Virus record (IMG/VR): IMGVR_UViG_3300011113_000642 | Span: 1-64,000 of that record | DNA: 64,000 bases | Reading direction: 5' to 3' (one strand) | Source of the DNA: a virus | In this document: in pieces, positions 303 through 43,253 of the stretch | How the letters are laid out: each line of letters opens with the position of its first letter | Numbering within the stretch: the first letter of the stretch is position 1 | Program-made: the position numbers and the translations under genes | Notes under the pieces: generated by a model | Told to the model about the DNA's origin: nothing | Seen by the model: the letters and a program-made list of their open reading frames with translations, nothing else | Database searches by the model: none

Positions 303-359
303 CATAAAAAAATTTTGGGCCCCCGAAGGAGCCCAAAACGTTTATTCAAAAAATTTTAA
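303..359. repeat. Repeat of about 57 bp, copy A (copy B at 995-1050)
   Basis: The terminator hairpin together with its flanks is repeated nearly base for base at 995-1050, including the downstream GTTTATTCAAAAA and ATTTTAA segments. Each copy sits at the 3' end of a tagged minus-strand gene. Such matched gene ends could serve as homology for cassette gain, loss or exchange; that use is inference. Confidence 0.75.
304..338 (-). terminator. Intrinsic terminator of the first tagged gene
   Basis: Read on the minus strand, an 11-bp stem with one G-T pair (TTTTGGGCTCC pairing with GGGGCCCAAAA) closes a TTCG tetraloop and is followed by a T tract. It lies about 30 bases past the stop codon at 367. 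An almost identical terminator follows the next minus-strand gene at 999-1030. Confidence 0.85.
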
Positions 360-366
360 GTTTTGT

Positions 367-969
367 TTAATCGTATGTTTTTATACCACGCTTTGCTCTG
401 CGTAGTCTTGCTTCGGCAGAAGCTACATCATATTCTTGCTGTGTTGCTGGAGCTGTTTTTTTAATTTTTGCCATCTGTTCTGCTTCTAATTCATCCAAAA
501 CGTAACCAACTGGGTCTCTTACAGCTGATGCGGCATCATAAGCAACATCAAGAGCTTTTATTGTTTTATCTTGCATGGATGGAGACATCCCCGACATTGT
601 ACGTTCGGTTCCTTTGCCTAGGGAATCCATTCTTCTTTCCCAAGCTGGGGTTGATGTTATAGCATCTGCTGCAATGTCTCCTGCCATCATTCCAACGGCA
701 GCTGCACCACCTCTGGCTAAGCCGCTTGCTAAACTTCCTGCCCTTGCTCCAATATTGTTTAATGGATTAATTGCTCCGATACCACCTTTTACTATTTGTG
801 TTTGTGCATTAAAGGGAATTGGCACTGCCCGGTCTTTAAGTATATAATCTGATCTTTTTTGCATTTTTTCGAACGTGGCAGCGGATGCTTCAAGCAATTT
901 AGTAAGATTATTTACTTTTTCTTGAAGTTGTTCTGATAAATTTTTGTAGTAATTTGTTAGGTAGTCCAT
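367..969 (-). CDS. Tagged putative internal head protein 1
   Basis: This is a 200-residue protein of unknown family. Its first 20 residues (MDYLTNYYKNLSEQ and onward) are nearly identical to the starts of the proteins at 1057-1650 and 2350-2739, while the remainder is unrelated to both. The shared tag contains LSE and LQE, which fit the L-x-E cleavage preference of T4-type prohead protease gp21. The body is rich in Gly and Ala (residues about 65-105) and ends in a basic segment. A late promoter box lies exactly 5 nt before the ATG and a terminator follows, so the gene is a self-contained late unit. My inference is a protein packaged in the capsid and injected; a scaffold-associated role is the alternative. 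Confidence 0.6.
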   Translation of the reverse strand: MDYLTNYYKNLSEQLQEKVNNLTKLLEASAATFEKMQKRSDYILKDRAVPIPFNAQTQIVKGGIGAINPLNNIGARAGSLASGLARGGAAAVGMMAGDIAADAITSTPAWERRMDSLGKGTERTMSGMSPSMQDKTIKALDVAYDAASAVRDPVGYVLDELEAEQMAKIKKTAPATQQEYDVASAEARLRRAKRGIKTYD

Positions 970-974
970 AAAAT

Positions 975-982
975 TATTTATA
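975..982 (-). promoter_or_regulatory. T4-type late promoter (TATAAATA), leaderless
   Basis: A perfect TATAAATA is read on the minus strand with 5 nt (ATTTT) between its last A and the ATG at 969. In T4 late promoters transcription starts at about that distance, so the mRNA should begin at the AUG. Confidence 0.8.
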
Positions 983-998
983 AAACACTATATGCTAT

Positions 999-1030
999 AA
1001 AAAATTTTGGGCCCCCGAAGGAGCCCAAAA
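999..1030 (-). terminator. Intrinsic terminator of the second tagged gene
   Basis: This is the same TTCG-loop hairpin and T tract as at 304-338, placed just past the stop codon at 1057. It forms part of repeat copy B (995-1050). Confidence 0.85.
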
Positions 1031-1056
1031 AGTTTATTCAAAAATTTTAAATTATT

Positions 1057-1650
1057 TTATTGGCCTAGTTGTCTTCTTTTTTGAGATGCTGCAACCTCAG
1101 CTGCACTTGCAGTAGTATCGGGATCTGCGCTATCATGTACATTTGGGTTTAGATCTCTGTACCCAGCCATTCTTTGAGCATAATTTCTTTGACGAAGCTT
1201 TTTGCCTGTTCCTGGAACAGATCCACCTTTTATTGGAATATGATAATCTCGTATCACTAAATCTCCTCTGTTAACTTCCAGTGGTGGTCCTTGGTTATGC
1301 ATTGAAGCATAGATTGGATTATTTTCTACAGTTGGACGACCATCATCACTTACTGTCTCCCAGGCAAGCATTTCAACGTCTGAGTCTGAGCCAATGCCTC
1401 TAATTGTTTCCTGACCAGGAAATACAGAGAATGTTTTTTCTTTTCTGGCTCCCTTACCAAGAGGGTTTCCTTTTTTGGTTGTTTCTCTTCCTGAAATAAG
1501 AGGAACACTTTCATTGGTGTAAGGATCTATATCGGTCGGTCTCATATAAAATGTGCGTCGTTCCCTGTACTCCAATAGTTGTTCTAAATGATTAACTTTT
1601 TCTTGAAGTTGCTCGGATAAATTTTTGTAGTAGTTTGTCAGGTAATTCAT
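1057..1650 (-). CDS. Tagged putative internal head protein 2
   Basis: This 197-residue protein begins with the same roughly 22-residue tag as its neighbours (MNYLTNYYKNLSEQLQEK) and then diverges completely into a charged, Gly/Pro-containing body with no family I recognise. Two possible gp21-type sites, LSE (residues 11-13) and LQE (residues 15-17), lie in the tag. Its own late box is 5 nt before the ATG and its own terminator follows. The HNH gene directly upstream on the same strand ends inside this promoter. A shared tag with unlike bodies suggests a targeting signal rather than a common fold. Confidence 0.6.
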   Translation of the reverse strand: MNYLTNYYKNLSEQLQEKVNHLEQLLEYRERRTFYMRPTDIDPYTNESVPLISGRETTKKGNPLGKGARKEKTFSVFPGQETIRGIGSDSDVEMLAWETVSDDGRPTVENNPIYASMHNQGPPLEVNRGDLVIRDYHIPIKGGSVPGTGKKLRQRNYAQRMAGYRDLNPNVHDSADPDTTASAAEVAASQKRRQLGQ

Positions 1651-1655
1651 GAAAT

Positions 1656-1663
1656 TATTTAGT
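1656..1663 (-). promoter_or_regulatory. Late promoter variant (ACTAAATA), leaderless
   Basis: ACTAAATA on the minus strand is followed by 5 nt (ATTTC) and then the ATG at 1650. The box directly abuts the stop codon of the HNH gene. CTAAATA recurs before many genes in this window and appears to be an accepted late-box variant. Confidence 0.7.
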
Positions 1664-2041
1664 TTAACGAAGATTTGGATTATGATATTCTAATTTTTTT
1701 GTTTCTTTATTATAATGTCTAATGTCATGACAAGTCGGACAAAGAAATACACCTTTTTTTAATTCTTCTTTTACTTCTTCGGGAGTAGCACATTCTGTTA
1801 GTTGCTTTGTTCTTCCGCGTCTTCCTGGTCTATTTTTTTCTGTTCCAATTTCAGTATGATGAAATTTTAAAAGTCTTGGATAAGCATTCCAACCACAATC
1901 TGTACAACAGGCCGAATCCCGAATAGAATTCACCAATTTTTTAATTGGTTTTTCTTTTTTAGGTTGTTTGCTTGGTTTAGACACTAAAATAATTACGGAG
2001 TTTTCTTTTATTTCTTCACCAAAAATATTATAGTTCACCAT
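1664..2041 (-). CDS. HNH endonuclease
   Basis: This 125-residue protein has the layout of a zinc-finger HNH nuclease: a Cys pair at residues 46 and 49 (CTDC), a His pair LKFHH at 61-62, and CPTCHDIRH at 101-109 giving the second Cys pair and the last His. The N-terminal third is basic and probably binds DNA. HNH genes in T4-like phages are commonly mobile homing endonucleases that nick or cut DNA and spread by repair. Here the gene lies between two tagged genes, so it could drive exchange in this array. No intron is visible around it. It has its own sigma70-type promoter. Confidence 0.8.
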   Translation of the reverse strand: MVNYNIFGEEIKENSVIILVSKPSKQPKKEKPIKKLVNSIRDSACCTDCGWNAYPRLLKFHHTEIGTEKNRPGRRGRTKQLTECATPEEVKEELKKGVFLCPTCHDIRHYNKETKKLEYHNPNLR

Positions 2042-2052
2042 ATTAGCTGTTT

Positions 2053-2080
2053 ATTATATTATCTATATTTTAAAAGTCAA
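2053..2080 (-). promoter_or_regulatory. Sigma70-type early promoter of the HNH gene
   Basis: On the minus strand TTGACT (2080-2075) and TATAAT (2058-2053) are separated by 16 nt. The ATG at 2041 is 11 nt after the -10 box, leaving a leader of only a few bases and no Shine-Dalgarno sequence. Confidence 0.75.
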
Positions 2081-2088
2081 CAGTATGG

Positions 2089-2096
2089 GCTAAATA
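2089..2096 (+). promoter_or_regulatory. Late promoter variant (GCTAAATA)
   Basis: GCTAAATA lies upstream of the small membrane protein gene at 2113. The predicted short leader contains AAAGGA at 2101-2106 as ribosome binding site. Confidence 0.6.
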
Positions 2097-2112
2097 TAAA
2101 AAAGGAAACAGT

Positions 2113-2277
2113 ATGCTAACAAAAATTAAAAATAGTTTGAAGAAGGTTACTAAGTTGGAATGGGTTGTTTTGGCTATTGCTGTCGTTGCTCTATGGGTTG
2201 GTTTAACTCATACCCACGGTCACAAAGGACAACACAAGGCTGAAAAGGCTTCAGAAGCCGTTGTTGAAACTAAGTAA
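2113..2277 (+). CDS. Small single-pass membrane protein
   Basis: This 54-residue protein has a basic N-terminus (MLTKIKNSLKKVTK), one hydrophobic helix (about residues 17-31, WVVLAIAVVALWVGL), and a His-rich, charged tail (THTHGHKGQHK). It is expected to sit in the host inner membrane with the basic end inside. AAAGGA is a good ribosome binding site and a strong terminator follows. No function can be assigned; roles in lysis timing or superinfection exclusion are possible but nothing in the sequence decides between them. Confidence 0.75.
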   Translation: MLTKIKNSLKKVTKLEWVVLAIAVVALWVGLTHTHGHKGQHKAEKASEAVVETK

Positions 2278-2300
2278 ATAACACTTTAGCGAAAAAAATT

Positions 2301-2331
2301 GGGAGCCCTGTTTGGGGCTCCCTTTTTATTT
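2301..2331. terminator. Bidirectional intrinsic terminator
   Basis: GGGAGCCC (2301-2308) pairs with GGGCTCCC (2315-2322) around a 6-nt loop, followed by T5 on the plus strand and preceded by A7. It can end both the small plus-strand gene (stop at 2277) and the convergent minus-strand gene (stop at 2350). Confidence 0.9.
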
Positions 2332-2349
2332 TAATACATAATAATTTTT

Positions 2350-2739
2350 TCAGTAAGTTGCGTTTGAGCTATGTGGTGCAATTTGGGACATTGCTTGTCT
2401 GGTAGCTTTATATACTTCTGGATTTTCTACACCAAGTTGCATTTCAATTTCTTCAATATTTGCTCCAAGTTCTCTAGCTGATTGTGCAGCTTCTTCACCT
2501 TTTGATGCAAATATTCCAGCTTTAGCCGGATTAGTTTTAAGCAATTGTTGGGATCTTAAATTTGCACGACCAGCCAATTCTTGTTTTAATTTTTGTCTTG
2601 CACCTTGGCGGATTGCTTCTTGTTTTAATTTAGTAGGATCTCCAGATTTCATTGCAGCCTTAAGGCCAGCTTCAAGTAAATTTACTTTTTCTTGAAGTTG
2701 CTCGCAGAGATTTTTGTAATAGTTTGTTAGATAATTCAT
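2350..2739 (-). CDS. Tagged putative internal head protein 3
   Basis: This is the third member of the tagged set: 129 residues starting MNYLTNYYKNLCEQLQEK, followed by a different, mostly helical body rich in Ala, Lys and Glu. I chose the ATG at 2739 rather than an upstream in-frame ATG because the shared tag begins there and a perfect late box lies exactly 5 nt before it. LCE and LQE are candidate gp21 sites. A bidirectional terminator follows. Function unknown; packaging in the head is inferred from the tag. Confidence 0.6.
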   Translation of the reverse strand: MNYLTNYYKNLCEQLQEKVNLLEAGLKAAMKSGDPTKLKQEAIRQGARQKLKQELAGRANLRSQQLLKTNPAKAGIFASKGEEAAQSARELGANIEEIEMQLGVENPEVYKATRQAMSQIAPHSSNATY

Positions 2740-2744
2740 AAAAT

Positions 2745-2756
2745 TATTTATAAATA
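2745..2756. promoter_or_regulatory. Overlapping divergent late promoters
   Basis: The 12-nt sequence TATTTATAAATA contains TATAAATA on both strands: minus at 2752-2745 and plus at 2749-2756. Each box is 5 nt from its start codon (ATG at 2739 on the minus strand, ATG at 2762 on the plus strand), so two leaderless messages would leave one shared site. Confidence 0.8.
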
Positions 2757-5183: not shown

Positions 5184-5740
5184 ATATTTTTGTACTTGCC
5201 GAAGATGCCGTTGAGTCCGCTCGCATGATGTGTGATAAACACGTTATTAAAATGATATTGGAAAGTTGTCAGTTGCTTTCAACTGCGCACCACGTTCTTG
5301 ATGGTGACGAATTGCTAGTAAATTCTGGCAAACGTAAATATAAAACATATATTTGTACAAAGAAAAATATTTGCAAAGCAACTATGATTAATCATCCGTG
5401 TACAATTTGGACCCGGGAAACAAGAGAAAATTATATTTGGCTTTGGCGACACACCTATGCTTTGTGTGGACAATATACAGAACGTTATGGTAAAGTTCAT
5501 GCATTGCAATATATGCTTGAAAATGAACTATACGATCCTCCGGCTAATATTTCAAAAGGTAAGCTGACTCCATTTGCACAAGCAATGCCGGATCAATACA
5601 AAGATGCCAATGCCGTTGTTGCGTACCGTAAGTATTATATTAACGAGAAGGTGCGTTTTGCAAAATGGAAGAACTCACAGGTCCCAGAGTGGTTTGTGGC
5701 AAAAAACCCAGAGATTGTTGACGAGCCGCTTCCTTTTTAA
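5180..5740 (+). CDS. Conserved phage hypothetical protein (MNIFVL family)
   Basis: A 186-residue protein of a type I recall from T4-like marine phages and some bacteria, without known function. Landmarks are the N-terminus MNIFVLAEDAVESARMMCDK followed by HVIKMILESCQLLSTAHH, then NHPCTIWTRETRENYIWL, LTPFAQAMPDQYKD and YRKYY. Conserved Cys, His and Trp residues suggest an enzyme or metal-binding protein. Its ATG overlaps the stop of the GMP reductase gene (ATGA type), so both come from the same early message. Its 3' end overlaps the convergent lysozyme gene by about 100 bp. Confidence 0.7.
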   Translation: MNIFVLAEDAVESARMMCDKHVIKMILESCQLLSTAHHVLDGDELLVNSGKRKYKTYICTKKNICKATMINHPCTIWTRETRENYIWLWRHTYALCGQYTERYGKVHALQYMLENELYDPPANISKGKLTPFAQAMPDQYKDANAVVAYRKYYINEKVRFAKWKNSQVPEWFVAKNPEIVDEPLPF

Positions 5741-6317
5741 GGGCGTTTGCTAAAGCATCATATCTTTTATGTATTCCAGTTTTTTGTTTAACTGATTCGT
5801 TATATTCTTTAGACTTAACATATTCATTACCAGCTTCTTCATATTTTCCTTGATTTAATAAAGATATAGCTTTTGGTGATTGTGGTAACATTCCTCTAAA
5901 ATATTCTGAAACTAATTCTCCTTGTAGTTCTGAAGAATATGTTTCTAATTTTGGAACTATTTTTTTTACTTTTGGTACTCTAACACTTACATCACGTTTT
6001 AAAAGTTTGTCAGCCTGTTCTGGTGTAAGTTTTGCTTTACCAGTTAAAACATCCGGGCTAATATTTAATTCAGCAAATATTTTTGGCGATTCTTTTGTAA
6101 CTAGATGGCCGTGGCCTATAGTATCAAATCCTTTGCTGTCTTTATAAACACTTAATATTTTTTCTTCGTTGCCAGCAGACTCGTATTCTTTAATTATTTT
6201 GCAGATACCATTAATATCGCATTGGACTTGATTTTGTTCGTTTAAAAAAAATTTGAATGATTTCATAGTATTGATGCTTGCTATTATTAAAAAAGTGAGT
6301 ATAATGTATTTAACCAT
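5640..6317 (-). CDS. T4-type lysozyme (GH24) with N-terminal signal segment
   Basis: Endolysin of 225 residues cleaving peptidoglycan glycan strands. The catalytic region VYKDSKGFDTIGHGHLVTKESP aligns with T4 lysozyme; E51, D60 and T66 occupy the positions of its Glu11-Asp20-Thr26. Unlike T4 lysozyme it begins with a hydrophobic segment (MVKYIILTFLIIASINT), so it is probably exported by the host Sec system, as signal-anchor endolysins are. ATG 6317 was kept for this segment; Met18 would give a cytoplasmic form needing a holin. A TCTAAATA box at 6353-6346 on the minus strand could drive it late. The C-terminal tail past about residue 190 overlaps the convergent gene. Confidence 0.85.
   Translation of the reverse strand: MVKYIILTFLIIASINTMKSFKFFLNEQNQVQCDINGICKIIKEYESAGNEEKILSVYKDSKGFDTIGHGHLVTKESPKIFAELNISPDVLTGKAKLTPEQADKLLKRDVSVRVPKVKKIVPKLETYSSELQGELVSEYFRGMLPQSPKAISLLNQGKYEEAGNEYVKSKEYNESVKQKTGIHKRYDALANALKKEAARQQSLGFLPQTTLGPVSSSILQNAPSR
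6278..6305 (+). promoter_or_regulatory. Sigma70-type promoter
   Basis: TTGCTA (6278-6283), 16-nt spacer, TATAAT (6300-6305), followed by a leader with AAAGGA before the ATG at 6333. It lies inside the start of the divergent lysozyme gene. Confidence 0.65.
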
Positions 6318-8782: not shown

Positions 8783-11700
8783 ATGTCTAAAAATAATTGC
8801 TGCTGTGGTGGTGGTCCTGGCCCCGGATTAACTTTTGACACATTTTGCTGTAATCCATTATTATTTACTGACTTTATTACTCTTTATGGTGATAGTATGG
8901 CACAACATGCCGAAGTTAGTCCAGGAGATTGGATTGCTTTAAAACAAACACGCGAAATTCCATCAACTACAGAAGCCAACTGTGCATTTAAAAGCACGGG
9001 TTCTTGCAACTGTTGTTGTGATTGTGCTACATCGGCAGCACTTGGAAAAAATGTTGATAAAGAAACAGGCAATAATACATCATTAAATGCAAATAATTTA
9101 TTTGATAAAAATAATAAAGATGGTGTAATTATTAAAAATGGTAAACCAAAACCACAAAATAAAAAAAGAGTTGATAATGGTTTCTTTTTTTCTGGAACTA
9201 AATTAAATTTAAGTCGTCAAAAAGAAACCAATCCATCAATAATTAAAAAAACAAATTTAAATGGAACTGTTTCATATAATTATAATTTTAGTTTTACAAA
9301 AAATATTGCAACCGATCCAACCAATAAAGCGCAAAATATTAGTTCAGGAGAAAATGTTACTTTAGTTTTTGGTGAAGAAAAGGTTGAAGGTAATTACGTT
9401 TTAGGTGATGAAGTAGATATTTCTAAGCCAATAGTATTTACAGATCAATTTCAAGAAAACACCACTCCTGCATTTTCCACAGATTCTGATCAGGGTGGAG
9501 TTCCACCATTTGGTGAGGTTGAAAGAAATGATTGGGAAAATGAAATTCCTTGCGTGTGGAAATGCAATACACTTTTTTGTTGTGAAGATGCAACAACTTG
9601 TCCGCGTACTCCTTGTGAAGATTGCTGTTGTAGGCACAGAGAAGTAATTGGAGTTAGAGGATATCAACCAGCATATTTTGCTTACAAATATAGTGGATGC
9701 CATTTTACTTGGTATCCCAGAGAAATGTTATTTGGAAAAGATCCATATGTACCACAATGTATGAATAATGAAGTTCAAACTTTGGGAATATATTGTCCGC
9801 CATATGATGCAAATGACTTTTCTATAAAAAAGGTAACAACTTCATGTGGTGTAATGAGCATGTCAGCTCCGTGGCAAGGAACAGTAAGTAGACGTGATGT
9901 AGATATTCCATTTTGGTGTTCCGAAGCCAATCCTCCTGCACTACAAACAAGAATAACAACGGTACCAGGAACAATAAATCACTGGGCATGTCACTGTGCA
10001 ACAGTTCCCCATATTCATGGAGGTATGGTAGATTCTCTTACAAATACAATTAATGTAAGCCAGAGACCAGGACAACTAGGATATGTTTCTCAATTTAGAC
10101 CATTTTATCCTCCAATGGAAGCATCAGATCTTGGATGTTGTTGGTGTTCTTCTGTAAATCCACCTTCTCCAGCTGGAATTCAATTTCCTGTTCCAGAATG
10201 GATGGGAACAAAAGCAGGATGTAATACTTATTATCCATTTACAAATGGAATAGGCAAAGTTCCTAATTTTACAAATCCATGTGCTCCAGGTTTTGCTTGT
10301 CATTATTTTCATGGAATAAATCCAAATTATTTAACAGGAAACCCTGGTTACACGACCGAATGTTTTAGAAATGGAATATCACCATATTTACAAAAAGTGG
10401 CAAAAACTAGATTTAAAGCAGCATATGAAATATTTTTGCATGGAGATGGAGCTTTTAATGATTTTGGGCCAAATTACGTATTAAGTGAAATAAAAGTAAA
10501 TATGTTGTTGAGAGATTATGAAATTGCATTTAGAGAAGTTCCAAATGCAAAAACTTCTCTCAGAGATCAGTGTTTAGGATTTGTACAATTAGAACATCAT
10601 TTTGAATGTTGTGCTTTTAGATCAGATGTTGGGATAGCAACAAAAAATCCAGGAATTTTAATAAATAATTGTAACATAAGAATACCTCCCTTTGAAAGTG
10701 AAGGATATGCTGGTCACTTTACACCAGCTTCTGGACCTACTTGTTTTACGGCTGCACCAACTTCCGGTAAAGTAAGAGCAAAATATACCCCATATCATTA
10801 TAGCGCTTGTATGTGGCAAATAAAAAGAGGAATTCCACGAAGAGTAATGTACGCTGGTTCAGGGATTCCAATTTTTAAATTTGATTTGGTAAACATGGAA
10901 AATTGGACTTTAAAAAATCCAAATAGAGTATTAGATTTACCAGCATTTACTGTAGAAAGATTTATAGAACATTATTATCGTTATTATTTTGGATTAATTA
11001 GTTTTAATGGTGGTGGGTGTGGTGCAAATGGCCAGCCCCCCGAACCGATTGAATGGTCTTATGGTCACTACATAAACTCATATGAGTATGTTACCGGCTG
11101 GTTAGAAAAAATGGTTGAAGCCGGAATTTTAAGAATTAAAGACCATGCAATTGATATTGCTAAAGAAGTAAATCAACTTGTTGGAAGTGCATATTATGAT
11201 TCAAGTGGAGTTTTAGTTATTAGTCCTGAAGCTGCTAAAGAATGTGGTGGTGTTAATGGATTTTTTGATCTTCTTAACTTTTTTGAAGTCAGTCCCGGAG
11301 ATATATCCGTAACACCTAAAAAAGTTAAAGAAAAGCTATTTAATACCGCCGGAGCATATAGTTATGATGGACCCGGAACAGAAACCGGATCTAACGCAAC
11401 TTTTATGCGTGCATTTTTACCAAGAAGAGCTCGTTTACCCATCGGTCCTTTAAATTCTAAAGTAGAAGCTTGGGGGTGCAATGGAAATAGCCCTACAACG
11501 CAAATTGAAGGCTGTACAACATGTTTTGGTTTATCTATAGATGGAGTTTCATGCTGCTTACCTGAAATAAACTGTCCTTCATATGTTATTGACAGCATTA
11601 ATGTCCCACCATTATTAAATACCACAGAAGGAAATTTTAGTGATATACAGCCAAATAAAGTTATTTGTGGTTTGGCTGGAACTTTTGTAATTGACAGAAT

Positions 11701-14700
11701 AGGAAAATTAGCTATTTTTGGTGGAATTCCTGTCGGAGGAGATATGACATCATGTCCATCAACAATAAGAACTGGTTATCCCGGCAATCCTTCGGCTGAA
11801 TTTGATTTAAATTGTAGTTATGATATGCATCCAAATTCTATTGTAAATATTCCATGGTATTTAAATATTTTTTCTGCTTTTGATTTAGATCCAACTAGCT
11901 CTAATTTTGGTCAAATGTTAAGTTATGGAGAAATACCAGATGGAAAGGTTTTAGATATAGTTTTTAATCCTAATTTTGCTGTAGCTCTTTGTGAATTTGA
12001 TAAAGATGGTATAGGAAATGTGTGTTTAGATACTGGACTGCCAGGAGAGGTATCTTCATCCTGGAAACCTACTTGGGAATGGAATGAATGGTCTGTAGCA
12101 TATCAAACAACAAATACAAATGGAAGTAATGTATCTTTAAGATATAATCCATCACAATCAAGTTGGGATTCTCTTTGTATAACAAATGAACCCTGGGGAA
12201 CAGCTCCTGGAGATATTATAGATGATGGTAATGGCAATGAGGGTGATCCAAATAATACTCAAGTTAGTGTATCAGCTGATAATCCTGGAGCAAGAAGTAG
12301 CTACAGCAATTCACCAAAATATACATCATATAGATTAAAATCATGGGGTAGCAAAGGAAAAGATTATGGTACTTTTAGTTTAAGTAAAGAAGATTCTGTT
12401 GTATTTAATTATGGTAGCAAATATAATCAACCATCTTGGGCATGTCCAGATGAAGGCGAAATTGAAACTCAGATTAATGTGACAAGACAGTGTTCTTGTG
12501 GTGAATTTAATTCTGAGAATGGATTTGAAAATGGGTATCGTGGATATGATCCAACAATTAATCCAGAAAATTTAAGATATCCTGGAACAAATACTTGGTT
12601 TATATGGAATAAAATTGCGGGTGGTTTAAAACACTTTGCCGCACTTGATGATTTTGGTGGAGTTTTTATTACAGCATTGAGTGATAATGAGGATGGTCAG
12701 TCTGCAAAAGGAAAGCCGCTTCCATATTTTGATATAGAACGACAAGAATCTTGGCCGCAACAAGGTTATTCTGATCCAAAAACATATGCTCCTGATTATA
12801 ATGGATTTGAATCTAGATTTAATTATTTTAATCACATTCCAAGACCTGGTTTTATAAACAAAGAAGATTGGACACAGGATTTATATAATTCTTTAACTTC
12901 TAGATTTTCTCCATGGTTAAATTGTAATGGCGCATGTGCTGTTTCTGTAACAACGGGGCCAGCTGCTGGGCCAAATAACACACAAATAAACCCGTGTAAT
13001 GTTTTTAATTTTGCTTCTAAAATAGATAACGTAGCAGCAGATAGCCCTAAAATAGACCAATGTTATGATAATACTGATTTGGTTGGCGGTAATGTTCAAT
13101 TTTCTCCATGTGTGCAACCCATCAAACTACGTGACGGCACTACTTGTACATTTCCAGATCCAGCAAGCGGTAATCCAAATATTCAAAATAGATTGTTTGA
13201 TTTAAGTACACATTTTATGGGATCTTTCTGCCAAAGAGGTGTACAAGATGACAATTTTAATGCAAATACAGAAAGCAGTTATAATTGCAAACCAGCATAT
13301 GTAATTTTACAACAAGATTTTAATAATTTTCAACCAAGGTATGTAGATTTGGCGGCAGGTGCATTTAATACTATGCTGCTGACAAATGAAAACAGAATTG
13401 AATTATATGGCAAGTATTATCAAATTGATGAAAATGGAAATAAAATTGGTCCAAAAATAAAAATTACAAATCAAGATGGATCTGTTTCTGAAGTTATAAA
13501 AGGAATAACTTGTTATGTACCCAATTCTGTTTTGCAAAAACAAGGAATTTGGGGTATTACTTATGGTTGTCCAACTTATTGCCGAGGAATTACGTTTGAT
13601 GTAAATGGCAGTGAATTTGCAAATACTAGAGGAATAACGCACAACCCAATTATTTCAGCATCTTATAAAGAACCATCTCAAAATGATATATTTCAAATAA
13701 TTAAAAGCTCAGCAGATTATAGCCTAGCTATAACTAAAGATAATAAAATATTTGTTTGGGGAGATGCTAGTATGGTTCCCGGTGCTTATTTTAAAGATAC
13801 TTACATCCCGGGTTTAACTGCTGAAGCAGAATTATCATTAGCAAATATAGATACGGCTTATGCCTCGGTATTAAATACCATTCCAAGTGAAAGAATAAAA
13901 ATAACTAATGTTGCTGTTGGAATTCATTCTTTTTATATTAGTTATCAAATTTTAACAACTAATATTGGTCTCCCACTTCATAGAAACTGTGTTTATAGCA
14001 GATATGGTAGAAGTGATTTTGGCGCAGAATTGCCTTCAAATTTACAAAATAAAAAATTAATTTCAATTTCTGCCGGCAATGGTTTTGCTGTGGCTATAAC
14101 TTCAGATGGTGAAGGACCAAAAACATGGAATTCTAGTCATTTTGCTCCAGAAACAATAAAATACCAATATAAAAATTTTGATAGTCTTCCTTTATACTTT
14201 AGAAGAGATGCATACTTTCACGCTATTCCAGGAAACTGGGATTATTCAAAATGGATATGGGGAGATACTTGTTGTTTTGCAATTCATGATCCCGATCACC
14301 CGTGTTTAAAAGAAGATCGGTGTTCAGCTTTAGCTTATAGTATTTATAGAGATTTTGCAGGCAATCCCTTAAGCAGTACTATTCCAGATAATGACCCGAG
14401 AAGATTTAATGTAAGGAAATCTTATAGTGGTCATCCAGAGCATCTTTTTGCAAGATCAGATATGAGAAGAATAAGTTCACAAACAATTGGTAATATAGGG
14501 CTGGCTTATGACGACAATAACACATTAGCAAATTGTAATGCTGAAAGTGTTGATGGGGCCCGACCAGCATTTGGAACTGGTGCTCTAATTGGAGAGCTTA
14601 ATGATGATTTTAATTTTTGTTTTCAAAGTACTGGTCCGGGATGGGGTAGTTTTGTACCAAATTCACCACTTTCAAAAATAAGAACAAAAAAACCATCAAG

Positions 14701-16255
14701 ATTTGGTAGCTGTATAAATGATGCTTGTTCCGATAGACCAAGTTCAAAAAATAGAGGAGTGTGTAGTGATTTTTGGGGTGCATATCTGTGTTCCACAACA
14801 CAACCATCAATACAAAGTTCATTTTCAGCAACTAAAGATATATTTCAACAAAAAGTTATTTCTTGGGGAGATAATCCAATTGGAAATAATGTATGCCGTT
14901 CCTTTTTAGGATATACTGTAGATTATTTTAAATATTCACAAAGAAATTTTTATTTAGGATATGATTCAGAAAAAGATACTTGGGAAATATACAATAATCC
15001 AGATATTTTTAAAAATACATTAATAAATAAACCAATCATGACGGATACTTGCTGTGAAGCAAATCCAGATCCAGATAACTGTCCATCTTCAAATCCAGCT
15101 GCCTGGTTATGTCCAGGAGCTACTACATTTACAGATCCAACAAATTGTGGTTGGGGTGGAGGAATTACACAAGGAACAGCCGGATGCACTTCGTGGCCTT
15201 CTTTAGCTGGATATCCTATGGTTGGTCCAAATTATACTAGATATGATACTAATGTAATTCCACCACATTATCCTAGAGATTCACAAATATTATATGCTTT
15301 GTTGATGAGTGATGGTGCTGTGAGTGGTGGCAATCCTTGTAGCATAAATCCATGTTATTCTCTCGCAAATAGAGAGTTAGTTGTTGGAAGATTTGCTGGA
15401 CCTGGTGGATTTGCATTTAATGTTGAACTTATAAATTGTAATAATACCATTAACACGGATAATTATACTTATAAACCGGTTGCACTAATATCAGAAACAC
15501 CATTTACTTTACTTAAAGGAGTTCAGTCAAGTATTAGTACAACTATACCACCAGAAAATGATCCAGATTATAAAAGCATAGGATTCAGAAAAGTATTAGA
15601 TGATCCAAATTATACAAATATTAATTTGGGAGATTTTATAAACAAACTACCACAAGAACACTTTTTTAGATTTGGAAATTATGGCCTTCCCGGAACTGCT
15701 GGTAAAGTTATAGCAGATAATCATGGTTTAGTTGCAGGAAATATGGTAATTTTTAAAAATTATAGAGATCGTGGTTATACTGGTGAGGGCGGTGTAATAC
15801 GAGAGGTTAGAATTAAATTAAATCCAGCTAATCAAAATAATAATGAAAATTTTCTTCAATTAGAAAAAGAATATTTTGTTTCTAATAGAAATTTATTTGA
15901 AAATTCTTTTTCAATAACGGAAACAATAGAAGATGCATTATCTGGAAATAACATAATTCCATTTTGGGTAGCAACTAATTATGGTGGTACTACTGCAGAC
16001 TCTTATGAAGTAAATACTAAATGGTATCCAATGTTTGATGAAATTCCTAGCAATTATCATGGAATTGCCGGAACAAGTTTGGCTGACACAGGCTGTTTTA
16101 TTGGTGGAACTGAAGATTGTTACGAATTAGATAGTAATGGAGTGGCACCAATAGATGGACAACATGTGATATTATTAACTAGTCCAATGGGAGTGGGTAC
16201 AATAGTTGGAATGCTTTGGTTATGTATACTTCAAGATTGCTGTGGTGCCGAATAA
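8783..16255 (+). CDS. Giant cysteine-rich protein with RCC1-like repeats
   Basis: One reading frame of 2,490 residues. The first 300 residues are very rich in Cys, with runs such as NCCCGGG, NCCCDC and CEDCCC, and Cys remain frequent to the end (CILQDCCGAE). From about residue 960 to 1790 there are RCC1-like propeller blades: GTFVIDRIGKLAIFGG, HFAALDDFGGVFITA, GAFNTMLLTNENRIELYG, DYSLAITKDNKIFVWGD, GNGFAVAITSDG. No signal peptide or membrane helix stands out. Late expression and size suggest a virion surface or receptor-binding component, possibly stabilised by metals or disulfides. Folding of so many Cys in the cytoplasm is puzzling. Exact function unknown. Confidence 0.85.
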   Translation: MSKNNCCCGGGPGPGLTFDTFCCNPLLFTDFITLYGDSMAQHAEVSPGDWIALKQTREIPSTTEANCAFKSTGSCNCCCDCATSAALGKNVDKETGNNTSLNANNLFDKNNKDGVIIKNGKPKPQNKKRVDNGFFFSGTKLNLSRQKETNPSIIKKTNLNGTVSYNYNFSFTKNIATDPTNKAQNISSGENVTLVFGEEKVEGNYVLGDEVDISKPIVFTDQFQENTTPAFSTDSDQGGVPPFGEVERNDWENEIPCVWKCNTLFCCEDATTCPRTPCEDCCCRHREVIGVRGYQPAYFAYKYSGCHFTWYPREMLFGKDPYVPQCMNNEVQTLGIYCPPYDANDFSIKKVTTSCGVMSMSAPWQGTVSRRDVDIPFWCSEANPPALQTRITTVPGTINHWACHCATVPHIHGGMVDSLTNTINVSQRPGQLGYVSQFRPFYPPMEASDLGCCWCSSVNPPSPAGIQFPVPEWMGTKAGCNTYYPFTNGIGKVPNFTNPCAPGFACHYFHGINPNYLTGNPGYTTECFRNGISPYLQKVAKTRFKAAYEIFLHGDGAFNDFGPNYVLSEIKVNMLLRDYEIAFREVPNAKTSLRDQCLGFVQLEHHFECCAFRSDVGIATKNPGILINNCNIRIPPFESEGYAGHFTPASGPTCFTAAPTSGKVRAKYTPYHYSACMWQIKRGIPRRVMYAGSGIPIFKFDLVNMENWTLKNPNRVLDLPAFTVERFIEHYYRYYFGLISFNGGGCGANGQPPEPIEWSYGHYINSYEYVTGWLEKMVEAGILRIKDHAIDIAKEVNQLVGSAYYDSSGVLVISPEAAKECGGVNGFFDLLNFFEVSPGDISVTPKKVKEKLFNTAGAYSYDGPGTETGSNATFMRAFLPRRARLPIGPLNSKVEAWGCNGNSPTTQIEGCTTCFGLSIDGVSCCLPEINCPSYVIDSINVPPLLNTTEGNFSDIQPNKVICGLAGTFVIDRIGKLAIFGGIPVGGDMTSCPSTIRTGYPGNPSAEFDLNCSYDMHPNSIVNIPWYLNIFSAFDLDPTSSNFGQMLSYGEIPDGKVLDIVFNPNFAVALCEFDKDGIGNVCLDTGLPGEVSSSWKPTWEWNEWSVAYQTTNTNGSNVSLRYNPSQSSWDSLCITNEPWGTAPGDIIDDGNGNEGDPNNTQVSVSADNPGARSSYSNSPKYTSYRLKSWGSKGKDYGTFSLSKEDSVVFNYGSKYNQPSWACPDEGEIETQINVTRQCSCGEFNSENGFENGYRGYDPTINPENLRYPGTNTWFIWNKIAGGLKHFAALDDFGGVFITALSDNEDGQSAKGKPLPYFDIERQESWPQQGYSDPKTYAPDYNGFESRFNYFNHIPRPGFINKEDWTQDLYNSLTSRFSPWLNCNGACAVSVTTGPAAGPNNTQINPCNVFNFASKIDNVAADSPKIDQCYDNTDLVGGNVQFSPCVQPIKLRDGTTCTFPDPASGNPNIQNRLFDLSTHFMGSFCQRGVQDDNFNANTESSYNCKPAYVILQQDFNNFQPRYVDLAAGAFNTMLLTNENRIELYGKYYQIDENGNKIGPKIKITNQDGSVSEVIKGITCYVPNSVLQKQGIWGITYGCPTYCRGITFDVNGSEFANTRGITHNPIISASYKEPSQNDIFQIIKSSADYSLAITKDNKIFVWGDASMVPGAYFKDTYIPGLTAEAELSLANIDTAYASVLNTIPSERIKITNVAVGIHSFYISYQILTTNIGLPLHRNCVYSRYGRSDFGAELPSNLQNKKLISISAGNGFAVAITSDGEGPKTWNSSHFAPETIKYQYKNFDSLPLYFRRDAYFHAIPGNWDYSKWIWGDTCCFAIHDPDHPCLKEDRCSALAYSIYRDFAGNPLSSTIPDNDPRRFNVRKSYSGHPEHLFARSDMRRISSQTIGNIGLAYDDNNTLANCNAESVDGARPAFGTGALIGELNDDFNFCFQSTGPGWGSFVPNSPLSKIRTKKPSRFGSCINDACSDRPSSKNRGVCSDFWGAYLCSTTQPSIQSSFSATKDIFQQKVISWGDNPIGNNVCRSFLGYTVDYFKYSQRNFYLGYDSEKDTWEIYNNPDIFKNTLINKPIMTDTCCEANPDPDNCPSSNPAAWLCPGATTFTDPTNCGWGGGITQGTAGCTSWPSLAGYPMVGPNYTRYDTNVIPPHYPRDSQILYALLMSDGAVSGGNPCSINPCYSLANRELVVGRFAGPGGFAFNVELINCNNTINTDNYTYKPVALISETPFTLLKGVQSSISTTIPPENDPDYKSIGFRKVLDDPNYTNINLGDFINKLPQEHFFRFGNYGLPGTAGKVIADNHGLVAGNMVIFKNYRDRGYTGEGGVIREVRIKLNPANQNNNENFLQLEKEYFVSNRNLFENSFSITETIEDALSGNNIIPFWVATNYGGTTADSYEVNTKWYPMFDEIPSNYHGIAGTSLADTGCFIGGTEDCYELDSNGVAPIDGQHVILLTSPMGVGTIVGMLWLCILQDCCGAE

Positions 16256-38796: not shown

Positions 38797-39210
38797 ATGC
38801 AAAATACCACACATTTATTGCTAAAGCATGGATTAAAATACTTGGTTTTAGAAAACCAAGATTTATTTAAGCAAAATATTACACAAGCCTTAGCAATAAA
38901 ATTGCATGAAAGTTTTGGTGAAATTAAAAAAGATGTTTGCCAAAATTTGCTTCTTTCTACGGAAAATACCGAAGCTTCTGAAGATTTAAATGAATTTGTA
39001 AGTTTTATTGAAAAATTTACTCCAGGAACTTATAAATTTAAAAATGGTTCTAGTATAAATATTTCTGAATCTGATGTGAAATACTTAAAGTGTCTTTTTG
39101 AAAATCTAAGCCCCAAAAATAGAAGTAAAATGGTTTCAGAAATTTTAAATGATGGAGCAGCATTCAAACAACACGTAATGTTTTCACAGAAAGTAAAAAA
39201 CCTATTATGA
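38797..39210 (+). CDS. Putative prohead core protein (gp67/gp68 position)
   Basis: A 137-residue charged, helical protein with no clear sequence match. It lies between portal and protease exactly where T4 has genes 67 and 68, minor prohead core proteins. Seen: a helical N-terminus (HLLLKHGLKYLVLENQDLFKQNITQALAIKLHESF) and a C-terminal helix pair. It starts 1 nt after gene 20 and its stop overlaps the next start (ATGA). Function inferred from position only. Confidence 0.6.
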   Translation: MQNTTHLLLKHGLKYLVLENQDLFKQNITQALAIKLHESFGEIKKDVCQNLLLSTENTEASEDLNEFVSFIEKFTPGTYKFKNGSSINISESDVKYLKCLFENLSPKNRSKMVSEILNDGAAFKQHVMFSQKVKNLL

Positions 39211-39371
39211 AAAATAACATCCGCCAAATGATCAAAAATGTAATTGAAGAAAATGCCGTAACCTTTAAGGAGCAAACTGGCAAAGTTCTTTATACTAAAG
39301 TTGGTCAAAAACTACAAGAACAATATAAGGCCGTAGCCAAACAAGTTTTTTCTAAGAAAGAACAAGAATGA
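39207..39371 (+). CDS. Small prohead core-like protein
   Basis: A 54-residue helical, basic protein (MKNNIRQMIKNVIEENAVTF and onward) ending VFSKKEQE. It is coupled to both neighbours by ATGA overlaps: start over the end of the 137-residue gene, stop over the start of gene 21. In T4 the small, highly charged gp67 occupies the same block. LQE near residues 36-38 is a possible gp21 cleavage site. A core or scaffold role is inferred from place and composition. Confidence 0.65.
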   Translation: MKNNIRQMIKNVIEENAVTFKEQTGKVLYTKVGQKLQEQYKAVAKQVFSKKEQE

Positions 39372-40015
39372 AACTAATCACTGAACTTACTGAAGATATT
39401 AAGTACGTTAAAGAAAATGTTGGTAACGGTGAAAAGACCTACTTCATTGAGGGTGTTTTTATGCAATCAGGTGTAAAAAACCGCAATGGTCGTGTTTATC
39501 CACAAGGTACTCTTTTAAAAGAATGCAACAGATACATTAATGAATATGTTAACAAAGGTCGTGCTCTCGGTGAATTGAATCACCCAACTGGGCCAACCGT
39601 AAATCTGGATCGTGTATCTCACATTGTAAAAGAACTTCATGAAGATGGCCATAATGTTTATGGTAAAGCCAAAGTTCTTGACACCCCAATGGGTAGAATT
39701 GTTAAAAATCTTATTGAAGAGGGTGCTCAACTAGGCGTATCAACCCGTGGTATGGGTTCATTAAAATCGAAGGGTGGATATCAAGAAGTTCAAGAAGATT
39801 TTATGTTGGCTGCAATTGATATTGTTGCCGATCCTTCTGCACCAAATGCATTTGTAAATGGTATTATGGAAGGTCGTGAATGGATGTTTATCGATGGTAT
39901 TTGGCAAGAAAGACAAGCAGCCGAAGCCAAAAAATTAATCCGCGAATCTTCCAAAAAAGACTTAAATAAAAATATTGTAAAGGTTTTCCAAGATTACTTT
40001 AAGAAACTAGGATGA
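39368..40015 (+). CDS. 21: Prohead core protease gp21
   Basis: A 215-residue protein (T4: 212), peptidase family S80. Seen: KTYFIEGVFMQSGVKNRNGRVYP, the catalytic His in LGELNHP (H72), the Ser in LGVSTRGMG (S125) and the Asp in DIVADPSAP (D155). In T4 it cleaves scaffold, capsid and internal proteins after L/I-x-E when the prohead matures. The capsid here has such a site (LIE, after residue 55), which sets the expected specificity for other candidates in this window. Overlaps the preceding and following genes by 4 nt. Confidence 0.95.
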   Translation: MKLITELTEDIKYVKENVGNGEKTYFIEGVFMQSGVKNRNGRVYPQGTLLKECNRYINEYVNKGRALGELNHPTGPTVNLDRVSHIVKELHEDGHNVYGKAKVLDTPMGRIVKNLIEEGAQLGVSTRGMGSLKSKGGYQEVQEDFMLAAIDIVADPSAPNAFVNGIMEGREWMFIDGIWQERQAAEAKKLIRESSKKDLNKNIVKVFQDYFKKLG

Positions 40016-40722
40016 GTAATATTCTTCCACAACATGCCACCAAATATTTGGTAGAGTCTTTAAATAAAAGAACTACTCAAAATATTAAATTGGAACTAGC
40101 TGAGGCGTTGGGTGCAACTAAAACCCCCAAAGCAGCAACAGGCAATAGAAGTTCTGAAAGTTCTAGTGGTGGGTATGGCGTAGGTGTTGGAGAACAAGAA
40201 ACCGATACTTCTAAAAATTTTACAAACGTTTTATTTGGTTCTAAGGAAAAAGCAGTAGATCCATTAGTTGGTGCTGGATTGGCTTATGGTATTGGAAAAA
40301 CAGCAACAATTGGAGCCGATATTTTAGATAAATTCGGAGTACAGTGGTTGGGTGACGTAGCACTTAAGGGGGCTGGTGTAAAACTTCCTAGCGGAAAGGG
40401 GCCTATTGGCGATATTGGTAGGGCTTTAGCCGGCAAAGCTTTGGTGGGTATTCCGGGTGCTGTTTCAAGTTTATTGCGGCAAGTTGGTGATATTAGTGGT
40501 GCTGGTTGGGCAGAAGCTCAATTGGGAAATATTGGCCGAAGTGAAATGCAATTAGCCGCACAGGGGGCCGGATCACCGTGGACTCCCTTTGTTTTACCTG
40601 GTCAAGCTAAAGGTAAACAGCAGGGGTATGACCCAAATAAAGAAGCTGACGAAGCGATGGCAGCTGCCGAAAGAGCAGAAAAAATTAAACGATATAGAAG
40701 GCGCGGATATAATATTCCATAA
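40012..40722 (+). CDS. Putative internal head protein in the scaffold operon
   Basis: A 236-residue protein with no known family. The first 35 residues (YLVESLNKRTTQNIKLELAEALG) look like a scaffold-type helix and contain LAE, a good gp21-type cleavage site after residue 31. The rest is Gly/Ala-rich (about 85-190) with a strongly basic end (RAEKIKRYRRRGYNIP), similar in style to the tagged protein at 367-969. It is coupled to gene 21 and precedes gene 22. I infer that it enters the prohead with the core and is trimmed by gp21. Confidence 0.55.
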   Translation: MSNILPQHATKYLVESLNKRTTQNIKLELAEALGATKTPKAATGNRSSESSSGGYGVGVGEQETDTSKNFTNVLFGSKEKAVDPLVGAGLAYGIGKTATIGADILDKFGVQWLGDVALKGAGVKLPSGKGPIGDIGRALAGKALVGIPGAVSSLLRQVGDISGAGWAEAQLGNIGRSEMQLAAQGAGSPWTPFVLPGQAKGKQQGYDPNKEADEAMAAAERAEKIKRYRRRGYNIP

Positions 40723-40762: not shown

Positions 40763-41794
40763 ATGAAAAATAGAAAAAATACCCAAATTAACGAAGAACA
40801 AGTTGCCATGACCGGATACCCAATGTCCGCTGGCGGCTCTGATAGAGATATGTCTGGTCGTGGCTCAATGATTCCACAACCAGTAGTTACTGGCACTCCA
40901 GTCACAATGACTCCTCAAATTCCAACCACCATGGCCAAAAAAACAATGGCTCCAGTTGCAGCACCAGTTGCAACTTCAAAGGAATCAGAGGAAAATGAGG
41001 AGGCCGAGGAAATAGAAAACGAGTCTGAGTCCGAAGAAACCGAAGAGGCCATCGAAACTAACGAAGAGTTGAACGCCCAATTCCGCGATTCTTTGATTTC
41101 TCTTCTTGGTGAAGACGTTGATCCATCCGTTGTCACCAAACTTGAAGCTGTTTTTGAAGCTGCTGTAACAGATCGTGTTGAGCGCACTGTTGCTCAAATT
41201 GTTGAAAGTGTAGATGGCAACGTTAAAACTTATCTTGATGAAGTCACCGAATCTCTAGTAGAAAAGGTTGATGATTATCTTGATTATGTTGTTGAAGAAT
41301 GGATGACCGAAAATGCAGTAGCTGTTGAGCAAGGTATCAAGACTCAAATTGCTGAAAACTTTATCAGTGGTCTAAAAAATCTCTTTGAAAATCACTACAT
41401 TGATGTTCCAGCAGAGAAGTACAATGTTCTTGATGAACTCTATGCACAAAATCGTGAACTAGAGACCAAACTAAATGAATCCGTCAAGAATAACATGAAT
41501 CTTAAGAAGGAAATTTCACTAACTGAATGCGCAGGCATATTTGTTGCTGAAACCCGCGATCTCGCTGATACTCAAGTAGCTAAACTTCAAGGTTTAATGG
41601 AAAACGTTTCCTTTGAAACCCCCGAAGAATATCGCGAAAAGCTCGTTGCTATTCGTGAAAATTACTTAACTCGCCCACGCCCAGCTGCCAAGGTAGCTGA
41701 GCCAGAACAAACTTTTGCTCCAGTAAAGCAAGTCCCCTCAACTCTTGTTGAGAGCTATGTTGGTGCACTAGGTAGACTTAATAAAAAAGTCTAA
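40763..41794 (+). CDS. 22: Prohead core scaffold protein gp22
   Basis: A 343-residue scaffold (T4: 269). It is strongly acidic (EESEENEEAEEIENESESEE at about 74-93) followed by long helices (VDDYLDYVVEEWMTENAVAVEQGIKTQIAENFISGLKNLFENHYIDVP) typical of gp22. It fills the prohead and is digested by gp21 during maturation. The N-terminal 70 residues are Thr/Pro/Met-rich and flexible, an addition compared with T4. Its codon use is shifted toward that of highly expressed genes, as in gene 23. Confidence 0.92.
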   Translation: MKNRKNTQINEEQVAMTGYPMSAGGSDRDMSGRGSMIPQPVVTGTPVTMTPQIPTTMAKKTMAPVAAPVATSKESEENEEAEEIENESESEETEEAIETNEELNAQFRDSLISLLGEDVDPSVVTKLEAVFEAAVTDRVERTVAQIVESVDGNVKTYLDEVTESLVEKVDDYLDYVVEEWMTENAVAVEQGIKTQIAENFISGLKNLFENHYIDVPAEKYNVLDELYAQNRELETKLNESVKNNMNLKKEISLTECAGIFVAETRDLADTQVAKLQGLMENVSFETPEEYREKLVAIRENYLTRPRPAAKVAEPEQTFAPVKQVPSTLVESYVGALGRLNKKV

Positions 41795-41843: not shown

Positions 41844-43253
41844 ATGCAATTTCAAGAAAACACACCATATGATATTCTCACCGAGAAGTGGGACCCTGTC
41901 ATTAATCACGAAGCTCTTCCCAAGATTCAAGACGATTACCGCAAGAAGGTAACCGCCGTTCTCTTGGAGAACCAAGAACAAGCTCTTCGCCAACAACACC
42001 TCATTGAGGATATGGGTGGCAATGCTAATCTTGGTGGTCCAGCAACTTCTACTGGATACAATAACGGTCAAGTTTCTGGTTACGACCCAGTTCTAATCAG
42101 CTTGATTCGTCGTTCTATGCCAAACCTAATGGCATATGATATCTGCGGCGTTCAACCAATGACCGCCCCAACCGGCCTTATCTTTGCTATGCGTGCCAAC
42201 TACCAATACGGTGGTACAGGCTACACCTATGGCAATGCTGGTTATGTCGAAGCCATGTTCCAAGAGCCACAACCATCTTACGGTGGTTCTGGTTGGACTC
42301 TAAACGCAACCTTTGCTGCTTCTAAAGGTCTTTCCGCTGGTTGGAACTATGCTTCCGGTGTAACTTCAACCGCTGCACAACTTGCTGCTCTTCGTGGTAT
42401 TCTAACCGCTGATGGTGAAGGTATCGGTAAGAGTGGTAATTATGCTAACTGGAATCAAATGGCCTTCTCAATCGACCGTGTTGCTGTCCAAGCTCGTACA
42501 CGCGCTCTAAGCAGCAACTATACTGTCGAATTGGCTCAAGACCTCAAGGCTGTTCACGGTCTCGATGCTGAAGCCGAACTCGCAAATCTTCTCAGCACCG
42601 AAATTCTTGCTGAAATTAATCGCGAGATCGTCAAGACCATCTACTACGTTGCTAAGACAGGTACTCAACAACCTGATATTCAACAAAGGGGTGTTTACGA
42701 TCTTGATATTGATTCTGATGGTCGTTGGTCTGCTGAACGCTTCCGTGGTCTCAGTTTCCAAATTGAGCGCGAATGCAATCAAATTGCCAAGGAAACCCGT
42801 CGTGGTAAGGGTAACTTCATTATCTGCGATAGCGATACCGCAGCTGCCCTCGCCATGTCTGGCTTCATGAGCCTCAGCCCAGCAATTGCTCCTCAACTAA
42901 ACGTTGATGATACTCAAAGCACATTTGCTGGTATTTTGAGTGGTAAGATCCGCGTCTACATCGATCCATATAGCCCAGCAGGATTTAACTTCTTCGTTAC
43001 TGGCTATAAGGGCGAATCGCCATATGACGCTGGTCTCTTCTACTGCCCATACGTTCCTCTCCAAATGGTTCGTGCAGTAGATCCAAATACTTTCCAACCA
43101 CGTATTGCCTTCAAGACCCGTTATGGTGTAGTTGCTAACCCATTCGTTATCAACACCACCACCGGCCAACCAGATGGTGAAACTCTCACCGCCGGCTTGA
43201 ACCACTATTACCGCTTAACTAGCGTTACCAACCTCCACGGTAACACTATCTAA
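41844..43253 (+). CDS. 23: Major capsid protein gp23
   Basis: A 469-residue HK97-fold capsid protein (T4: 521). Seen: DPVLISLIRRSMPNLMAYDICGVQPMTAPTGLIFAMRANY, FSIDRVAVQARTRALSSNYTVELAQDLKAVHGLDAEAELANLLSTEILAEINREIV, RRGKGNFIICDSD, and ISLSPAI-type core regions. The N-terminal peptide probably ends at QQHLIE (residue 55), a gp21 site, leaving DMGGNA as mature start. Codons are visibly more GC-rich than in neighbours, as expected for very high expression. No separate vertex protein gene 24 is seen in the window. A strong terminator follows. Confidence 0.97.
   Translation: MQFQENTPYDILTEKWDPVINHEALPKIQDDYRKKVTAVLLENQEQALRQQHLIEDMGGNANLGGPATSTGYNNGQVSGYDPVLISLIRRSMPNLMAYDICGVQPMTAPTGLIFAMRANYQYGGTGYTYGNAGYVEAMFQEPQPSYGGSGWTLNATFAASKGLSAGWNYASGVTSTAAQLAALRGILTADGEGIGKSGNYANWNQMAFSIDRVAVQARTRALSSNYTVELAQDLKAVHGLDAEAELANLLSTEILAEINREIVKTIYYVAKTGTQQPDIQQRGVYDLDIDSDGRWSAERFRGLSFQIERECNQIAKETRRGKGNFIICDSDTAAALAMSGFMSLSPAIAPQLNVDDTQSTFAGILSGKIRVYIDPYSPAGFNFFVTGYKGESPYDAGLFYCPYVPLQMVRAVDPNTFQPRIAFKTRYGVVANPFVINTTTGQPDGETLTAGLNHYYRLTSVTNLHGNTI

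Follow-up and report, generated by a model that had tools for sequence, protein, structure and literature searches.

A common N-terminal sequence, with the consensus M[DN]YLTNYYKNL[SC]EQLQEKVN, opens three minus-strand genes (A, B and C; Table 1) of the window, the whole 64,000-nucleotide stretch analysed here (positions 1 to 64,000 of IMG/VR record IMGVR_UViG_3300011113_000642). Judged from the sequence, it is very probably a capsid-targeting leader, which would be cut by a gp21-type protease so that the cargo is kept in the head and delivered to the next host. The comparison of A, B and C found no mutual similarity among their bodies. The shared start, the unrelated bodies and the presence of an HNH nuclease gene within the array had been described in a sequence-only reading and were confirmed. 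Scans of the window and of the remainder of the 94,854-bp record revealed no fourth copy of the tag. The leaders run beyond the 20 shared residues, to residue 23-27, where they close on another LxE. Pairwise comparison of the window tags over 22 codons showed 5-6 synonymous versus 2-3 nonsynonymous differences, indicating that the tag is conserved as protein.

Table 1. Coordinates of features in the window. A slash marks the end of a leader; leader residues are numbered from the start codon.
Feature	Position	Strand	Evidence or remark
Tag protein A, 200 aa	367..969	-	ORF; predicted mature part residues 28-200, pI 9.3
Leader of A, codons 1-27, end LLE27/A	889..969	-	sequence
Late-type promoter element of A, TATAAATA, 5 nt before ATG	975..982	-	sequence
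Terminator-like hairpin after A, within repeat block 307-364	312..339	-	hairpin and repeat scan
Tag protein B, 197 aa	1057..1650	-	ORF; belongs to a body family, 7 or more relatives below E=1e-20
Leader of B, codons 1-27, end LLE27/Y	1570..1650	-	helix 2-30 predicted
Promoter element of B, TAAATA (CTAAATA), 5 nt before ATG	1656..1661	-	sequence
Terminator-like hairpin after B, within repeat block 999-1056	1005..1030	-	hairpin and repeat scan
HNH endonuclease gene, no leader, between B and C	1664..2041	-	phrog_2255 E=9.1e-15
Tag protein C, 129 aa	2350..2739	-	ORF; all-helical predicted model
Leader of C, codons 1-23, end LLE23/A	2671..2739	-	sequence
Late-type promoter element of C, TATAAATA, 5 nt before ATG	2745..2752	-	sequence
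Terminator-like hairpin downstream of C	2301..2322	-	scored on both strands
Lysozyme-like protein, T4-type leader MKSFKFFLNE/Q	5640..6266	-	internal ATG of ORF 5640-6317
gp21-type prohead protease	39368..40015	+	phrog_207 E=8.9e-79; PF03420 E=4.3e-39
gp22-type scaffold	40763..41794	+	phrog_237; LxE 13 vs 5.5 expected
gp23-type major capsid protein, LIE55/DMGG	41844..43253	+	phrog_138

IMG/VR was scanned twice by pattern and once by alignment, which yielded about 180 loci (L numbers below). A profile of the first 23 leader residues picked out 166 distinct tag proteins in these loci from uncultured viral contigs, and their bodies fall into about 60 groups; the search for the tag on other proteins of related viruses, suggested by the sequence-only reading, thus found it. 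One leader on so many unrelated bodies is the arrangement of T4-type internal proteins. All counts come from contig fragments, and the number of body groups is approximate because groups made by single linkage partly merge via short repeats. Every one of the 32 long contigs tested carries one to nine copies of the leader. A degenerate tag pattern matches 58 stretches in IMG/VR. In the viral loci, 69 of 70 distinct matches sit exactly five codons past the start codon, whereas cellular genomes (257 Gb) gave four matches, all bacterial and none of them N-terminal. It is therefore not a chance pattern, and the idea that it is an ordinary domain of cellular proteins was rejected. Neither the region nor the tag, nor any window body or other tag protein used as query, had a relative among isolated phages (INPHARED) by blastn or tblastn. 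One of the swapped bodies described below has a partial, weak match to Serratia phage PCH45.

The leader closes on [LI]xE in 164 of the 166 proteins and lacks this motif in two. The Glu falls at residues 21-36, mostly 23, 27, 28 or 31, and the stretch between the conserved 22 residues and the motif is variable. Ala follows directly in 61 of 147 cases (41%; first 149 proteins), compared with a background of 8%. The same pattern is seen in leaders with only 43-77% protein identity. In T4, ipII and ipIII begin MKTYQEFIAE/A and the ipI leader closes on ITE19/A, and in each of the three proteins the only LxE is the one that closes the leader. With Asp in place of the P1 Glu, a T4 leader still targets its protein but is no longer processed. 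The T4 leaders are removed by gp21 (PMC9026906). T4 internal proteins and tag proteins thus both close their leaders with a gp21-type motif, preferably followed by Ala. The proposal that LxE sites of the tag are gp21 sites is supported, with the likely main site shifted to the leader end. The inner LSE13 and LQE17 were set aside as the main cut, since body joins, the Ala preference and the leader swaps all fall at the distal LxE. The boundary between leader and cargo in A, B and C is most likely at LLE27, LLE27 and LLE23, respectively, so that the mature forms would start ASAATFEK..., YRER... and AGLK...; LSE13 and LQE17 may be additional gp21 cuts.

The record is T4-like, with a gp20 portal, a gp21 protease, a gp22 scaffold and a gp23 capsid protein, the last 53% identical to cyanophage capsids and bearing LIE at its expected site, as had been read from the sequence. 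As with T4 internal proteins, the gp21 and gp22 core genes are present in the same genome as the tags; gp21 was detected in the window and in 18 of the 32 long contigs, which are fragments. ORFs 38797-39210 and 40012-40722, between gp20, gp21 and gp22, occupy the place of T4 gp67/gp68, and the latter carries LxE at residues 15 and 31, close to its start, but hardly any further on. Elsewhere in the window, a 2490-aa ORF (8783-16255) has a strikingly cysteine-rich N-terminus (MSKNNCCCGGGPGPG...).

Cargo exposed to active gp21 is expected to avoid [LI]xE. Past residue 45, the bodies hold 85 [LI]xE, versus 157-233 when the same residues are counted at other spacings. Averaged within body groups, with groups resampled, the ratio is 0.48 (0.36-0.63), a procedure that addresses kinship among the tag sequences only in part. 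Neither [LI]xD nor [LI]xQ is depleted in the bodies, and [LI]xE is not depleted in 194 long untagged ORFs of the same loci, used as controls. The T4 scaffold is digested by gp21. LxE is enriched in scaffolds, with 16 against 5.8 expected in T4 and a similar excess in the window gp22. The body of T4 Alt shows no [LI]xE depletion though Alt is packaged, so depletion is not obligatory for packaged cargo. Two extra LxE lie inside the window bodies, at residue 160 of A and residue 97 of C.

The cargo is mostly basic. Its median pI is 8.7, versus 6.0 for the controls; the window cargoes range from 9.2 to 9.7 and T4 internal proteins from 9.0 to 9.7. No body matched a known effector family when 148 tag proteins were searched with Pfam, PHROGs and PADLOC; the family matches among them were to cytidyltransferase (six members), peptidase (one) and endolysin (one). 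The body of A has a single weak relative, in L091, which matches the C-terminal 42 aa. The AlphaFold prediction for B was poor past the leader helix, and fold searches gave no match below E=0.001. One group of tag proteins (L071, L096, L113, L128, L133, L153, L180) has repeated D-x-N-x-D-G loops, and the Dockerin_1 profile matches eight of its members. A similar short C-terminal motif (SSNATY, HVTPSHY, TGSQQY, HVGSAQY) is shared by C, by proteins of L005, L126, L127, L142 and others, and by two proteins with T4-type leaders (L090, L121).

T4-type leaders (MKSFKQFLxE and similar) occur on proteins in the same loci as the YYKNL tags, and several bodies are found behind either leader. The proteins of L076 (MKKFKEFLRE/AVENWDEQ, T4-type) and L092 (..QYLTE/VENWDEQ, tag) are 80% identical over 129 aa. 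The body family of C also occurs behind a T4-type leader, in L033 (MKSFIQYLQE/SGLKKALDTGD), which is 56% identical to L054 (..NLLE/AGLKKALSTGN) over 151 aa, starting from the L of LxE. Among the short proteins with LDPEFLE, those of L123 and L036 likewise differ in leader class from those of L116 and L117. In the clearest swaps, similarity begins at LxE or a few residues away. The body shared by L104 and L172 is also found behind either leader, but its similarity begins further inside. One body is combined with four leader classes, YYKNL (L164), T4-type (L094), FNDHL (L168) and FFxxxF (L058), and these versions are 49-74% identical across 250-317 aa. Some genes (L026, L037, L144) have tandem double leaders. 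This natural exchange on the same bodies suggests that the YYKNL leader and the T4 capsid-targeting sequence (CTS) are interchangeable. Along with the terminal [LI]xE and its Ala and the depletion in bodies, it agrees with the capsid targeting proposed earlier, as do all sequence tests that were run. Another late-gene N-terminus, KINxYSWIHxLNxAA..., followed by several LxE, was observed in L015, L024, L047, L063, L064, L071, L109, L143, L153 and L180. It is linked to tag proteins only through large multi-part bodies, and is possibly a fifth leader class.

Bodies are also exchanged behind a constant leader. Over 4.9 kb, L088 and L136 match at 94% identity; this stretch holds genes for a lysozyme-like, an IMPDH/GMP-reductase-like and an 81-aa protein and a single tag gene. 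At the next tag gene the two still agree in some 20 nt ahead of the start and in the first 28 codons, as far as EKMLKE (LKE28), after which the bodies are wholly unrelated. The same neighbour genes flank the window array and most other arrays inspected, indicating a stable site with changing content. The sequence part of the proposed cassette system is supported by the leader exchange on the same bodies and by this body swap at LKE28.

It is possible, but not probable, that the leader targets the core and is cut by gp21 while the cargo is structural, serving as core, DNA-condensing or head-filling proteins instead of injected effectors. The pI exceeds 8 in 98 of the 166 mature bodies, C is predicted to be all-helical, many bodies are repetitive or dockerin/EF-hand-like, and effector families are absent from the matches. 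However, T4 internal proteins are basic too, yet are anti-restriction proteins (PMC12373910). Nearly identical phages differ in body content, and the diversity of about 60 body groups is extreme; both are features of accessory genes.

The sequence-only reading gave each window gene its own leaderless late promoter, and TAAATA-N5-ATG elements are present at A, B and C. The repeated terminator block attributed to two of them was recovered as well (58 nt, 91% identical between A and B), and C likewise has a terminator-like hairpin, an addition to the earlier reading. TAAATA stands exactly 5 nt before ATG in 94 of 165 tag genes, which suggests late expression, as for T4-type internal proteins. At least 100 untagged ORFs of the window and related loci also have TAAATA at exactly this spacing, which suggests that late mRNAs of these phages are leaderless.

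The promoter is conserved jointly with the leader, as 75-nt repeats with the fixed 5-nt spacing, and this homology might promote the exchange of bodies between L088 and L136. It is nevertheless very unlikely that the start is conserved mainly as DNA, a cassette of leaderless late promoter, translation start and recombination arm in which the encoded peptide has no targeting function. The codon differences among window tags are mostly synonymous, the pattern is kept in the diverged leaders, and the [LI]xE motif with its avoidance in bodies requires a protein-level cause. A role as recombination arm can be compatible with targeting. Tail fibres commonly share N-terminal docking segments on variable bodies. 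Despite this precedent and the predicted helicity of the leader, an uncleaved helix for docking to the virion exterior (tail, baseplate or capsid decoration) is the least probable reading, since the terminal [LI]xE, its avoidance in bodies and the swap with T4-type leaders would be unexpected if the leader stayed uncut.

Under capsid targeting, each tag gene would be transcribed late from its own TATAAATA-type element. The leader helix, of about 23-28 residues with its [LI]xE end, would bind the prohead core and carry the cargo into the assembling head, where a gp21-type protease would cut past the terminal motif and possibly at the inner sites. The mostly basic cargo would stay with the DNA in the mature head and enter the next host alongside it. 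With the cut placed at the leader's end, an exchange of bodies would leave the mature protein unaltered by the leader, and the locus would work as an array of cassettes similar to the internal-protein loci of T-even phages. From this analysis we infer core binding, cleavage, presence in the virion, injection and an anti-defence role for the tag proteins. It is rather doubtful, though conceivable, that the unrelated leader families (YYKNL, T4-type MKSFKQFLxE, FFPNDFxNLPNLQD, FNDHLxFSNN and perhaps YSWIHxLN) form an addressing code, in which each leader has its own core partner and thereby sets dose, position or ejection order and a change of leader re-addresses the cargo.

The closest known system is that of T4 IpI, IpII and IpIII, in which a short N-terminal CTS precedes otherwise unrelated, basic, late proteins, with a gp21 [LI]xE site at the leader end and a variable accessory locus (PMC9026906, PMC12373910). 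T4 Ip1-3 share only a CTS-type leader; once injected, they inhibit different GmrSD enzymes (PMC12373910; see also PMC9391042), for which reason anti-defence cargo would be the likeliest use of the tag as well. Shared leaders on variable internal proteins of T-even phages are already described in PMC12373910 and the 1994 work cited there. The leader here, MDYLTNYYKNLCEQLQEKINxLE.., has 23-28 residues, whereas the T4 CTS, MKTYQEFIAE, has 10-19. The YYKNL leader does not have the T4 form MK[ST][FY]xx[FY][IL]xE, which is seen in the window lysozyme-like protein. It would thus work like a CTS while lying outside the T4 CTS sequence family. The lysozyme call was made by the motif GHGHL and resemblance, not by profile search. 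Its ORF (5640-6317, minus strand) has a conserved in-frame hydrophobic extension (..LIIASINT) ahead of the MKSFKFFLNE leader, with relatives in L011, L020, L088, L094 and L136; the two starts could give a membrane or secreted form and a packaged form.

T4 Alt, a packaged and injected ADP-ribosyltransferase, also has a short leader at its N-terminus, which gp21 cuts at ITE6 (PMC5694885), but the leader is a different one, Alt is also cut at the C-terminus, and its body shows no LxE avoidance. In the giant phages phiKZ and SPN3US, propeptides are cut after Glu by a gp21-related protease, several cuts each, and SPN3US gp53 and gp54 are diverged proteins with identical N-termini (PMC5694885). However, most of those propeptides exceed 100 residues, compared with 23-28 here, and the cleavage motif is another, while the present phages have T4-type head genes. 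A literature search, with most subscription papers outside its scope, found neither this leader family, nor a second class of leader that swaps with the T4 type, nor protease-motif avoidance as a mark of packaged cargo. The system probably works like T4 internal proteins, but with new leaders, many more putative cargoes and several exchanged leader classes.

Phage proteins injected ahead of the phage's own gene expression are the first answer to host defence. To our knowledge, few such proteins are known outside T4, because their bodies lack recognisable families. The leader with its terminal [LI]xE provides a sequence signature for likely packaged proteins, with a predicted first mature residue. 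The tag is thereby a way to list proteins probably delivered into bacteria by uncultured T4 relatives. The natural leader swaps make the contacts of the capsid-targeting sequence testable, and the roughly 60 body groups from uncultured T4-like phages are candidates for anti-defence screens.
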